From Gordonibacter massiliensis (ex Traore et al. 2017) (GTDB lineage Bacteria; Actinomycetota; Coriobacteriia; Coriobacteriales; Eggerthellaceae), in the NCBI GenBank assembly GCA_900170005.1, contig LT827128.1, positions 558,001 to 622,000 on the forward strand: a DNA stretch of 64,000 nt, given 5' to 3'. The notes below the pieces were generated by a model. The model searched no databases. It saw nothing but the letters and a program-made list of their open reading frames with translations, and was not told the origin of the DNA. Each line of letters begins with the position of its first letter. Positions within the stretch are counted from its first letter, which is position 1. The position numbers and the translations under genes are program-made. Below, one piece after another: positions 14,570 through 18,416 of the stretch.

Positions 14570-14677
14570 CCGTAGGGGCGCTCTCCTGAGCGCCCGTTCG
14601 CGCTTCGCGCGAAAACGCGGGCCTCGGCTGTTTTTCCGGCTGCGCCGGAACGGGCGCTCTGGAGAGCGCCCCTACGG
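14570..14677. repeat. 108-bp inverted repeat with CCGTAGGGGCGCTCTCC ends
   Basis: The left arm 14570-14599 and right arm 14648-14677 are near-perfect complements, and each arm also folds on itself (GGGCGCTCTcctGAGCGCCC). No ORF is seen. It looks like a composite palindromic intergenic element. From 14678 to the flavoprotein stop only a GC-rich spacer remains. Confidence 0.7.
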
Positions 14678-14791: not shown

Positions 14792-16669
14792 TTAGATCTC
14801 GCCCTTCACCGTCTCGGCCATGAGGTAGCCGTAGTTCATGGCGGCGTCGAAGCCCATGGCGTAGGGGCGCCCGTCCTTCTCCTCGATGGAGCCGCACACG
14901 TCGCCGGCGGCGTACAGCCCGGGCACCGCCGTGCCGTCCTCCTTCTGCACGTGGCCGGCCGTGTCGATGGCGAGGCCGCCCGTGGTCAGATAGAACGTGG
15001 GTATGCAGGACACGACCCAGATGCCGTCGTGCGTGTCGAGGTAGGGCAGGTTCTTGCGCTTGAACTCGTCGGGCTCGCCGGCCAGCGCGTGGGCGTTGTG
15101 CGTCTCGATGGTGGCCGCCAGATCGGGCAGCCCCAGCTTCTCGGCCGCCTCCTCGACGGATGCATAGTGCACCATGTCGCCGCGATGCTCCAGGCACTTG
15201 TACGTGTCCATGGCGTAGGCCTCGTTCTTGTTCGTGGTGATGCGGCCCGACTCGTCGGTGATGTAGAAGAACGCGCCTCCGTTGGCCTCGTCCACGAGGC
15301 CGCGTCCCAGCATGCCGTGGTTGTCGGACATGAGGTTGCCGAACTGCTTGCCCGAGGCGTTCACGATGATGCCGGGCGTGGTCTGGTACAGGAAGGCTAT
15401 CTCGAAGTTCGAGCCGGCCTGGTTCGTGGTGGACAAAAACGCCCCCAGCTCGCGACCCATGCACTCCACGGCGCCGCCCGCCGCGAGCCCCAGCTCGATG
15501 CCGTCGCCCGTGGAGCCGGGCGCGCAGTTGAACTGGTAGTCGGCGTACTGGGGGTAGTACTGCTTGATCATGTCCTGGTTCGCCGCGAAGCCGCCCGACG
15601 TGAGGCACACGGCCTTCGCCGAGACGGTCCAGGTCGAGCCGTCCTTGCCCTCGGCCACCAGGCCGCTCACGCGCCCGTCGGCCTCCTGCACGAGCTTCGT
15701 CACCTTCGTGCCGTAGACTATCTGGCCGCCCAGCGCGCCGATGCGGTCGACCAGGAACTCCTTGGCATAGCCGCAGCCGCCCATGTAGCAGCCGGGAGCC
15801 AGATACGGCGTCACGCCGTAGGCCTTGTTCACGCCCAGGCTGTAGAAGCCGACGCCCATGTCGTGCATCCAGTCCACGAGCTGCCCCGAGTTCGAGTACA
15901 TGGCCGTCTGGTAGGGCATGGTGCCGCCGAAGCGGTCGTTTTCCGGCACCAGGTACTTCTGCATGACGCCGAGCATGCCCTGCTTGTTGTACATGGGGTT
16001 GTCGTCCATGCGCCCGAGCGCGTAGTTCGCCTGCAGCTGCGACTCGGCGGCGGCCACGCCCGAATAGGTCATGGGCATGGAGCCGCCCGCGATGTCCTGC
16101 TTCTCGAACAGGATGACCTTCTTGCCGGCTTCGAGCAGCCGCGTGGCGGCCACGAGGCCGGCGGTTCCGGCGCCCATGAACGCCACGTCCACGTCGGCGG
16201 TCTGCGGGGCGCCTCCAGCGGGAGCGACCGCGCCCTTCGAGAAGTCCTTCGCGTTGCCGCCGGCGCTCTCGATAGCGTCCTTCACGGCGTTCTGCACGGC
16301 CATCGACGTGGTCGTGGCGCCCGAGACGGCGTCCACGTCCAGGTTCTTGGACTCGAGTATCTTCGCCGCCATGAGGGGCGCGGCCACCGAGCCGATGCCT
16401 ATGGTGTCGTCGCAGCGCAGCACGCGCACCCCGGCGAGGTCGCCCTGCGCCACGGTCACCTCCACGAACAGCTCGTCGTCGTGGCCCATGGACGAGCCTG
16501 TCCACTTGCCGTCGGTGAAGCTGTCCGGCACGCTCTTCTTCGCCTCGCCGCCCTGGTCCTTCTTGGCGCTGTCGGCCTGCTTGGGCGCGGCGCATCCGGC
16601 CAGCCCGAGCGCGGCCGCGCCGCCGAACGCGAGCGACCCCTTCAAAAAGCTCCTGCGATCAAGTTCCAT
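14792..16669 (-). CDS. Tat-exported fumarate-reductase-like flavoprotein (FMN + FAD)
   Basis: The 625-aa protein opens with a Tat signal (DRRSFLKG) and a lipobox-like LGLAGC, so it is probably anchored outside the membrane. An FMN-binding domain (about 55-130) carries SGATTTS, the covalent flavin attachment motif. A FAD_binding_2 domain follows (about 140-620) with MGAGTAGLVAATRLLEAGKK. Relatives reduce fumarate, urocanate, or in Eggerthella plant compounds such as cardiac glycosides, taking electrons from quinols through cytochromes. No cytochrome gene is adjacent. It is divergent from a membrane LuxR gene that is probably its regulator. GGAGGGAG supports the ATG at 16669. The substrate is unknown. 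Confidence 0.9.
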   Translation of the reverse strand: MELDRRSFLKGSLAFGGAAALGLAGCAAPKQADSAKKDQGGEAKKSVPDSFTDGKWTGSSMGHDDELFVEVTVAQGDLAGVRVLRCDDTIGIGSVAAPLMAAKILESKNLDVDAVSGATTTSMAVQNAVKDAIESAGGNAKDFSKGAVAPAGGAPQTADVDVAFMGAGTAGLVAATRLLEAGKKVILFEKQDIAGGSMPMTYSGVAAAESQLQANYALGRMDDNPMYNKQGMLGVMQKYLVPENDRFGGTMPYQTAMYSNSGQLVDWMHDMGVGFYSLGVNKAYGVTPYLAPGCYMGGCGYAKEFLVDRIGALGGQIVYGTKVTKLVQEADGRVSGLVAEGKDGSTWTVSAKAVCLTSGGFAANQDMIKQYYPQYADYQFNCAPGSTGDGIELGLAAGGAVECMGRELGAFLSTTNQAGSNFEIAFLYQTTPGIIVNASGKQFGNLMSDNHGMLGRGLVDEANGGAFFYITDESGRITTNKNEAYAMDTYKCLEHRGDMVHYASVEEAAEKLGLPDLAATIETHNAHALAGEPDEFKRKNLPYLDTHDGIWVVSCIPTFYLTTGGLAIDTAGHVQKEDGTAVPGLYAAGDVCGSIEEKDGRPYAMGFDAAMNYGYLMAETVKGEI

Positions 16670-16779
16670 GTCGATCTCCCTCCGTGATCCGATCCGTCGT
16701 GCTCCGGGCCCTGCGCGAGGAGTCGCGTCCTGCCCGGACCCTGCGGCCAGTATGGGCGCCCGGGGCGCCCTTGTCGTGA

Positions 16780-16834
16780 CCGATAATCGGCGAACTTCGC
16801 GCCAGCGCGCGCCCAACAGATCACCGATTATCGG
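16780..16834. promoter_or_regulatory. Twin palindromes CCGATAATCGG and CCGATTATCGG
   Basis: Two 11-bp palindromes, at 16780-16790 and 16824-16834, differ only in the central base. They are centred 44 bp apart (about four helical turns) in the divergent region between the flavoprotein and LuxR genes. The second extends to the 13-bp ACCGATTATCGGT. Position and symmetry suggest binding sites for the adjacent LuxR dimer. Confidence 0.7.
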
Positions 16835-16952
16835 TTATCTTCTGGAAAACACCTGATGAAAGGCTTGCGAGTGCAATCGTCAAAAGGTTTCGGATCGCGG
16901 TTGACGCCGCGCGGGCCCTCGCGAACGTTTACAATGGGTACCGGGAGGTTGG

Positions 16953-18416
16953 ATGCTTATGCGCACGAAGGATGCGGCCCTGCTCTCCGTCGCGCTGGCG
17001 GCGGGCTTCGGCCTGTGCAAGACGGCGACGTCGCTCGCCTACATCACGGCCATGGGGTCGGTTTCCACCTCGGTCGGGTTCGTCTCGCAGCTCGGGTTCA
17101 TGTTCGCCATGACCGCGGCCACCATCGTCACCGCCGTCGCGATCATCGCGCTCGTGCGGGCAGGGAGGATCGCCCCGTGGAGCCTGCGCCAGACGCCCGC
17201 CCTCGTCGCGCTGTGCGCGGGCTTCCTGCTGGGGTCGACCGGGGCCCTGTCGGGCCTTCCCGCCTGGGCGGCCACGCTGCTGCTCGGGGGGCTCTGCGGC
17301 TATGCGCTCACCGTGCTCATGGCGGCGTGGCTCGAGGCGTTCGCCGCCGAGGGCGACACGTCGGCGGCCATCGTGCAGATCGTGTGCGCGCTCATCGTGC
17401 AGGCGGTGCTCGCGTCGCTTCTGCTGCTGGTTCCGGCGCTGCCGGTGGCGGCGGTGTCCGTGGTGTTTCTGCTCGTGTCGGCCGCGGTGCTCGCCTGGGC
17501 GAAGGGCCGCCTGGGGCCGCCGCCCGAGAGCCGCGTGCTCGTGGCCGACCGCAAGGACCGCTTCACGCTGTTCCACGCGTATCTGTGCCTGGCCGTGGTG
17601 GTGGGCGTGGTGGGCATCCTGCACACCTCCGTGCTGGGATCGTCGTTCGAGCACATCGTGGGCGACGTGAACATGGGCGTGCCGCTGGCGGCGTCCACGG
17701 CCATCACGGCGCTCGTCGCCATGCTCATGGTGCAGCGGCTCGACCCCGTGTCGGTGTACAAGGTGTGCTTCCCCTGCATGCTGGTCATCCTGTCGCTGCT
17801 GCCGTTTCTGGGCGGCTTCCTGGGGCCGGTGGCCGGCACGGTCATGATCACGTGCTACGACGTGTGCGGCATGGTGTTCCTGCTGTTCATCGTCGAGCAA
17901 TCGCGGCGCCTGGGCGTGTCGAGCTACCTCCTCACCAGCCTGTACATGGTGGCTTCGAGCCTGTTTCTGCTCGTGGGGCTGGCCATAGGCATGGGGCTCG
18001 GCGCGGTGTCGGCCGACTACGGGCTGTCGCTGCTCACGCTGCTGGCGTTCGCCGCCATCTACCCGCTGGCCGTCGTGCTCATGGTGGTGCTGCGGCGGGG
18101 CCGGGGCGACGCGGAGCCTGCGCGCGAGGGGGCCGCGGCCGCCGGGCCGACGTCCCCTGAACCGGCGCCCCGCGAGGCCGAGGCCGCGTTCGAGCGCTGC
18201 CTCGGGCGCTACGCCGAGACGTACGGGCTGACGAAGTGCGAGACCGAGATACTGGGCTACCTGGCGCGCGGGCGCTCGGCCCGTTTCATCGCCGAGGAGC
18301 TCGTCATCTCCGAGAACACCGTGTGGGCGCACGTCAAGCGCGTGTACGCGAAGCTGGACGTCCATGACAAGCAGGAGCTCATGAGCCGTTTCGAGGCCGA
18401 CGCGAAGCGCGCCTGA
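16953..18416 (+). CDS. LuxR-family regulator with an N-terminal multi-span membrane domain
   Basis: The 487-aa protein has about 12 hydrophobic segments (residues 1-385), an Ala/Pro-rich linker (about 388-415) and a C-terminal LuxR/GerE HTH (LTKCETEILGYLARG, then ISENTVWAHVKRVYAKL). This architecture is strongly expanded in Eggerthellaceae and usually sits beside a fumarate-reductase-like flavoprotein. It presumably senses a small molecule in the membrane and switches on the divergent enzyme. ATGs at 16953 and 16959 are both possible; GGGAGG is 4 and 10 bp away respectively. Confidence 0.9.
   Translation: MLMRTKDAALLSVALAAGFGLCKTATSLAYITAMGSVSTSVGFVSQLGFMFAMTAATIVTAVAIIALVRAGRIAPWSLRQTPALVALCAGFLLGSTGALSGLPAWAATLLLGGLCGYALTVLMAAWLEAFAAEGDTSAAIVQIVCALIVQAVLASLLLLVPALPVAAVSVVFLLVSAAVLAWAKGRLGPPPESRVLVADRKDRFTLFHAYLCLAVVVGVVGILHTSVLGSSFEHIVGDVNMGVPLAASTAITALVAMLMVQRLDPVSVYKVCFPCMLVILSLLPFLGGFLGPVAGTVMITCYDVCGMVFLLFIVEQSRRLGVSSYLLTSLYMVASSLFLLVGLAIGMGLGAVSADYGLSLLTLLAFAAIYPLAVVLMVVLRRGRGDAEPAREGAAAAGPTSPEPAPREAEAAFERCLGRYAETYGLTKCETEILGYLARGRSARFIAEELVISENTVWAHVKRVYAKLDVHDKQELMSRFEADAKRA

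Follow-up and report, generated by a model that had tools for sequence, protein, structure and literature searches.

Gut members of the Eggerthellaceae encode membrane LuxR regulators by the dozen; Eggerthella lenta DSM 2243 has 83 transmembrane LuxR regulators, three of which have been shown to control catechol metabolism (PMC9734109). Each of these three, DadR, HcdR and CadR, activates its enzyme when a specific substrate is supplied, and for DadR the membrane domain and the HTH are both required (PMC9734109). They belong to the 10–12-TM LuxR regulators of Coriobacteriia, in which a membrane domain is joined to a GerE HTH and the gene lies near that of a flavin or molybdenum enzyme. An operator for DadR, HcdR or CadR was not found in the main text of PMC9734109, where the search terms palindrom, inverted repeat and EMSA gave no hits and the two hits for "binding site" do not concern these regulators. 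Similarly, no operator for the membrane LuxR family was found in the portions of the open-licence literature searched, including those of PMC9734109, PMC11887054 and PMC11585353. A comparison on the DNA side is offered by NarL, which likewise has a GerE-type HTH: its dimer recognises inverted sites of 16 bp (7-2-7 site TACCCCTAAAGGGGTA), with sites at −40 to −49 of napF and −38 to −47 of yeaR (PMC4549865). Candidate operators, together with a rule for their layout, make the DNA side of the membrane LuxR family testable, and such a rule would aid in matching regulators to enzymes and in making substrate sensors.

The locus described here lies in a window of 64,000 nucleotides, the whole stretch of Gordonibacter massiliensis DNA that was analysed, and consists of a flavoprotein gene and a membrane LuxR gene that are divergently oriented (Table 1). 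The LuxR regulator contains a C-terminal GerE HTH (PF00196, E 1.3e-13, residues 426–477), and in the predicted model (mean pLDDT 76) the part ahead of residue 390 has 12 long helices. The top PDB matches of this model are MFS transporters, including VMAT, OxlT and NarK, with a TM-score of about 0.5 by query length, and the membrane domain is consequently predicted to be MFS-like. The terms MFS, major facilitator and transporter do not occur in the main text of the paper describing the family (PMC9734109). With a GerE HTH, a predicted number of N-terminal helices within the range of 10–12 and an adjoining flavin enzyme gene, the protein shares these features with DadR, HcdR and CadR. The flavoprotein carries a Tat signal, and its FAD domain matches 1d4c (E 2.6e-40) and urocanate reductase 6t85 (E 3.8e-29). 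Based on these matches the flavoprotein is related to the fumarate and urocanate reductases; it resembles flavocytochrome c fumarate reductase and urocanate reductase in its FAD domain and differs from them in having an FMN_bind domain ahead of that domain. On the far side of the flavoprotein gene, between it and a hydrogenase gene, lies a large inverted repeat (window 14570–14677) with 46-nt arms that are 83% complementary.

Table 1. Positions of the genes, palindromes and putative promoter elements in the window
Feature	Positions	Strand	Remarks
Flavoprotein reductase, Tat-exported, FMN_bind + FAD_binding_2	14792–16669	−	putative target gene; starts with ATG, complement of 16669
−10 box CATACT, flavoprotein promoter	16749–16754	−	first base 31 bp from site 1 centre; putative function
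Poor −35 hexamer ACGACA	16772–16777	−	17-bp spacer; adjoins site 1; read by eye, putative
Site 1, flavoprotein-side palindrome CCGATAATCGG	16780–16790		centre 16785; predicted −43 of flavoprotein promoter
Site 2, palindrome CCGATTATCGG	16824–16834		centre 16829; predicted about −87
Third conserved element CCTGATGA, CCTGNTSA-like	16852–16859		23 bp from site 2 centre
Candidate −10 TACAAT of LuxR gene	16930–16935	+	putative
Membrane LuxR regulator	16953–18416	+	starts with ATG 16953; N-terminal multi-helix domain, MFS-like predicted fold; C-terminal GerE HTH

The twin palindromes and their conservation

The preliminary description reported two 11-bp palindromes lying 44 bp apart, centre to centre, between the flavoprotein gene and the membrane LuxR gene, and both the distance and the location were confirmed, as the two palindromes fall inside the 283-bp gap that separates these genes. 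CCGATAATCGG and CCGATTATCGG are the same 11-mer read from opposite strands, site 2 extends to a perfect 13-bp palindrome (ACCGATTATCGGT, 16823–16835), and the two sites together form an 18-nt inverted repeat with arms 21 nt apart. Matches to such an 11-mer are expected by chance at 0.08 per 64-kb window, and two matches were obtained in 0 of 100 shuffles of the window. The 3.95-Mb genome as a whole contains six exact copies, approximately the chance number (0.08 × 62 = about 5), indicating that it is the pairing and place of the palindromes that are unusual and not the 11-mer itself. The exact 11-mer is present in 67 of the 138 family genomes searched, at one to seven copies per genome. One of the other four copies in this genome occurs where both strands carry long open frames. 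The remaining three (L004, L005 and L006, at about 1501; G000:C1:2374088, 2912591 and 3237307) each form part of a large hairpin-like element that is repeated at these places, gcgaagccccctcg...cgagggggcttcgc.

Of the 138 family genomes, 21 (the present one included) contain a match to the LuxR regulator at E <= 1e-50, and they represent 8 of the 48 genera. In each of the 20 others the LuxR ortholog is divergent to the same flavoprotein (61–98% identity); the organisms include Gordonibacter sp. 28C, Eggerthella sinensis, Rubneribacter, Paraeggerthella, Adlercreutzia and Slackia. The dyad was scored with a 15-mer matrix. Built without the genus under test, this leave-one-genus-out matrix located the site in 21/21 intergenic regions from 8 genera, with p = 0.002 (the floor of 500 shuffles) in 20 regions and p = 0.004 in one; the loci are related by descent and therefore are not independent observations. 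The conserved unit is a two-fold symmetric site of about 15–16 bp, as for an operator of the GerE/NarL type. That six genome copies approximate the chance number would fit palindromes that arose by chance, a reading that is contradicted by conservation and fixed spacing in 8 genera and is hardly credible.

The upstream regions of the orthologs contain a CCCCGATAATCGGTG-like sequence at site 1 and a CNCCGATTWTCGGTTA-like sequence at site 2, with several variations. Slackia, which contributes 9 of the 21 loci, has one dyad only (CACCGANTATCGGTG), while the second dyad of Paraeggerthella is decayed and lies 37 bp away. In the three Rubneribacter loci site 1 is weak by matrix (7.4 to 12.3 bits) and was located with a position-guided pattern, and in the distant MAG locus L154 both sites are present, 42 bp apart. 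For a flavoprotein homolog (63%) in genome G007 there is neither a LuxR match at E <= 1e-50 nor a good site, the best scoring 5.4 bits. This gene adjoins a diverged membrane protein of the LuxR kind, an arrangement also seen in Adlercreutzia mucosicola L175, where the LuxR is at 32% identity. Two loci of the Adlercreutzia lineage, L175 and L137, have a diverged LuxR relative beside the same flavoprotein gene and carry a different inverted repeat, ACGATAGGCGGT-N10-ACCGTCTATCGT, suggesting a concerted change of regulator and operator. Of the 62 LuxR regulators that could be scored by pattern (of 65 in the genome), 1 has a tryptophan in the recognition helix, a residue that is invariant in the 15 aligned sequences. 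This residue was rejected as the sole explanation of the site, since the diverged L175 regulator shares it although the sequence upstream differs.

Geometry of the flavoprotein promoter

The distance from the centre of site 1 (or the single site in Slackia) to the first base of the flavoprotein −10 box is 31–32 bp in 22/22 loci, a count in which ties are settled in favour of 31. Without this tie-break the distance is 31 in 17 of 21 loci and 32 in the other four, and the remaining 32 offsets tested gave 7 hits altogether. The distance of site 1 from the −10 box has a standard deviation of 0.42 bp, compared with 43 bp for its distance from the flavoprotein ATG and 60 bp for that from the LuxR match; the ranges are 103–227 bp for the ATG and 163–375 bp for the LuxR match, measured to where the match begins and not to the start codon. 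A constant distance to the flavoprotein −10 box and a variable distance to both genes indicate that the sites belong to the flavoprotein promoter. Of the 12 two-site loci, 11 have a spacing of 43–46 bp between the sites and one has 37 bp. If transcription starts about 7 bp downstream of the −10 box, as is presumed here, site 1 would be centred at about −43 and site 2 near −87, so that the proximal site would have the −42 to −44 placement of a GerE/NarL-type activator operator. Like the NarL sites, the dyad of 15–16 bp is two-fold symmetric and predicted to lie near −43 (PMC4549865); it differs from them in sequence and in the conserved tandem pair, and the regulator is membrane-bound and has no receiver domain. 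No sigma-70 consensus promoter was scored at the flavoprotein promoter in a promoter scan. Together with the poor −35 hexamer, this is as expected if the promoter is activator-dependent. A perfect 17-bp palindrome (GGGCGCCCGGGGCGCCC, window 16754–16770) overlaps the spacer of this promoter and is not kept in the close relative L008.

Taken from conservation and geometry, the twin palindromes are probably a tandem operator through which the adjacent membrane LuxR activates the flavoprotein gene. It is proposed that binding of a substrate by the transporter-like membrane domain would cause HTH dimers to hold both sites. The two dimers would lie on one face of the DNA, with site 2 about four helical turns upstream of site 1. 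The proximal dimer would contact RNA polymerase in the manner of a class II activator, leading to expression of the flavoprotein. The sites could instead serve autoregulation or repression of the LuxR gene. They do lie between both genes, and among the relatives FLAG-DadR rises with dopamine, which its authors discuss as potential autoregulation (PMC9734109). The wide scatter in the distance to the LuxR gene, set against the constant distance to the flavoprotein −10 box, makes this quite improbable. A role as an RNA hairpin, either attenuator or terminator, is suggested by the 18-nt inverted repeat and by one terminator-like match at 16823–16835 (0.3 expected). Both sites lie upstream of the putative start points of both genes, indicating that neither transcript would include them, and Slackia has a single dyad; a hairpin is therefore very improbable.

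Sequence and layout in other membrane LuxR groups

The palindromes had also been put forward as a likely operator from which a consensus for membrane LuxR regulators might be read. The first part, as a prediction for this membrane LuxR, has strong support in conservation and fixed promoter geometry; the second fails, as the upstream regions of other LuxR genes are at background level. The matrix of the conserved sites, from which L104 was left out, scores 24.1 bits at this locus versus 9.5 bits for the best match upstream of the other 64 LuxR (GerE) genes of the genome, and about one match of 9.5 bits is expected from the background rate. Accordingly, the motif search beside these genes gave 0/64 upstream regions above background. 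Word enrichment upstream of the 65 LuxR genes returned mainly A/T-rich, promoter-like 6-mers and no common operator, and among the matches listed no 8-mer occurred in more than 7 of the 65 regions. The pattern CACC-N7-GGTG was found once upstream of LuxR genes versus 0.4 expected. On these matrix scores and word counts upstream of the LuxR genes of this genome, a family-wide sequence consensus was rejected. The sequence predicted to be recognised, ACCGAT-N-ATCGGT, is private to this ortholog group, and the family members examined may have in common a promoter layout, not a sequence.

Three other groups of membrane LuxR regulators, in which the divergent enzyme is conserved in 19/19 loci (group A), 15/15 loci (group B) and 8/8 close loci (group C), were compared using patterns chosen after viewing alignments or a genome scan. 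Group A (L060, flavoprotein; 20 of 30 fetched loci aligned, L227 then dropped) has (C/T)ACC-N8-GGT(A/G) and CACC(T/C)GATNCNGGTG-like dyads. The proximal centre lies 31.5 bp (14 loci) or 32.5 bp (1 locus) from the −10 box in all 15 scorable loci of the 19, and the spacing is 43.5–44.5 bp in 9 and 35.5 bp in 2 of the 11 loci measured. Four group A loci (L218, L219, L232 and L246), this genome's own locus among them, have no match to the proximal pattern and thus no recognisable proximal dyad, and 4 of the 15 scored have no distal match. Group B (L089, flavoprotein; 17 of 29 loci aligned, with the distant L266 and L272 dropped) has TCCCGTCGGACGGGGGA-like and TCCCCCTACCTGGGGGA-like dyads, with a distance of 31 bp from the proximal centre to the −10 box in 12/15 loci and a spacing of 37–40 bp in 15/15.

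Group C (L091; 13 of 17 loci aligned) is adjacent to a TtrA-like molybdoenzyme and has CACCTGATCGAGGCG-like and CACCTGATCCAGGTG-like dyads. This pair was first noticed in the present genome and the other 7 loci were fetched afterwards; it is present in 8/8 close homologs (at least 58% identity, 6 genomes), or 7/7 beyond the originating locus. The strict pattern fits five of the eight close homologs, and the other three were read by register. The −10 distance is 31 bp in six loci and 32 bp in two, and the spacing is 45–46 bp. The pair was not seen in five homologs at 35–43% identity. Examination by eye of three of these more distant homologs of the group C regulator (L308, L315 and L317) revealed TAGTCA-N5-TGACTA at the place of the distal dyad, upstream of LuxR, as would be predicted by a model in which each regulator has a private code. 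The group C molybdoenzyme gene (L091 1673–1675, minus strand) contains an in-frame TGA between the parts that match TtrA residues 67–254 and 278–805, which may encode selenocysteine.

The palindromes might also bind another, unlinked regulator, for example of the TetR type or a redox regulator, with the LuxR gene a mere neighbour. Short perfect palindromes fit many repressors, and a third conserved element, described below, suggests that a second factor may act here. Such a regulator is unlikely: the sites accompany this LuxR/flavoprotein pair in 21/21 regions, the 11-mer elsewhere in the genome is at chance level, and three other membrane LuxR groups combine different dyads with the same layout, as would follow from each LuxR having a site of its own.

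Scans of the 65 LuxR genes of this single genome provided weak results. A layout-free scan for dyad pairs was led by L091 with p = 0.024, the floor of 40 shuffles, and gave p = 0.098 for this locus, 0.805 for L089 and 0.902 for L060; as it did not single out this locus, the scan was set aside as uninformative. A layout-guided scan gave 7 genes at p <= 0.05 versus 3.25 expected, with L060 at 0.098. The L089 match in the latter scan was rejected as recovery of the footprint, since it uses the wrong −10 box, AAAAAT on the wrong strand. One LuxR HTH in this genome (L049, G000:C1:309331–309489) has an in-frame TAG stop inside the domain and is possibly a decayed gene.

The layout was also compared in the DadR loci, of which 12 of 15 were aligned. 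In genome G057, which we take to be E. lenta DSM 2243 partly on the basis of its dehydroxylase, the dadR/dadh gap contains a conserved 18-bp dyad, ATCATAAATTCTTATGAT, that is identical in 9 of the 12 aligned orthologs. Residue 506 of the G057 dehydroxylase is Ser, the residue stated for strains with little or no dopamine metabolism (PMC9734109). By hand count, this strongest DadR dyad is about 64 bp from the dadh −10 box and not 31, indicating that the 31–32 bp rule fails there as stated. The dyad in the window thus differs from that of DadR both in sequence and in its shorter distance to the enzyme −10 box. A second conserved stretch, ending in CGATGC, is found near the expected place in 8 of the 9 DadR loci shown, of 10 tried, and may be a weaker DadR site.

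In summary of these layouts, a dyad 31–32 bp upstream of the enzyme −10 box with a second about 35–47 bp further is found in most loci of four ortholog groups, although DadR differs and the single-genome scan is weak. The proposal that a single promoter chassis serves the membrane LuxR regulators of Eggerthellaceae is about as likely as not to be right. The chassis would be made up of the enzyme −10 box, a dyad 31–32 bp upstream and a second three to four helical turns further, and to it each regulator would bring a private half-site (CACCGA, CACC[TC]G, TCCCCC or CACCTGAT). If this proposal is true, regulator–target pairs, and later substrate sensors, would be readable and swappable from sequence alone.

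A third conserved element

With a loose pattern, a CCTGNTSA-like word was located in 20 of 21 loci, at 22–25 bp past the site 2 centre (in Slackia, past that of the single site); it was not seen in L154. In group C, CCTGNTCA lies 21–22 bp beyond site 2 in 5 of 8 loci, with a looser match in the other three. Across this genome the regions upstream of LuxR genes show no enrichment of the third element, which may be bound by another factor. The element, as CCTGNTSA or TGANCAGG, recurs in either orientation near the operators of several membrane LuxR groups, including groups A and C and the DadR loci.
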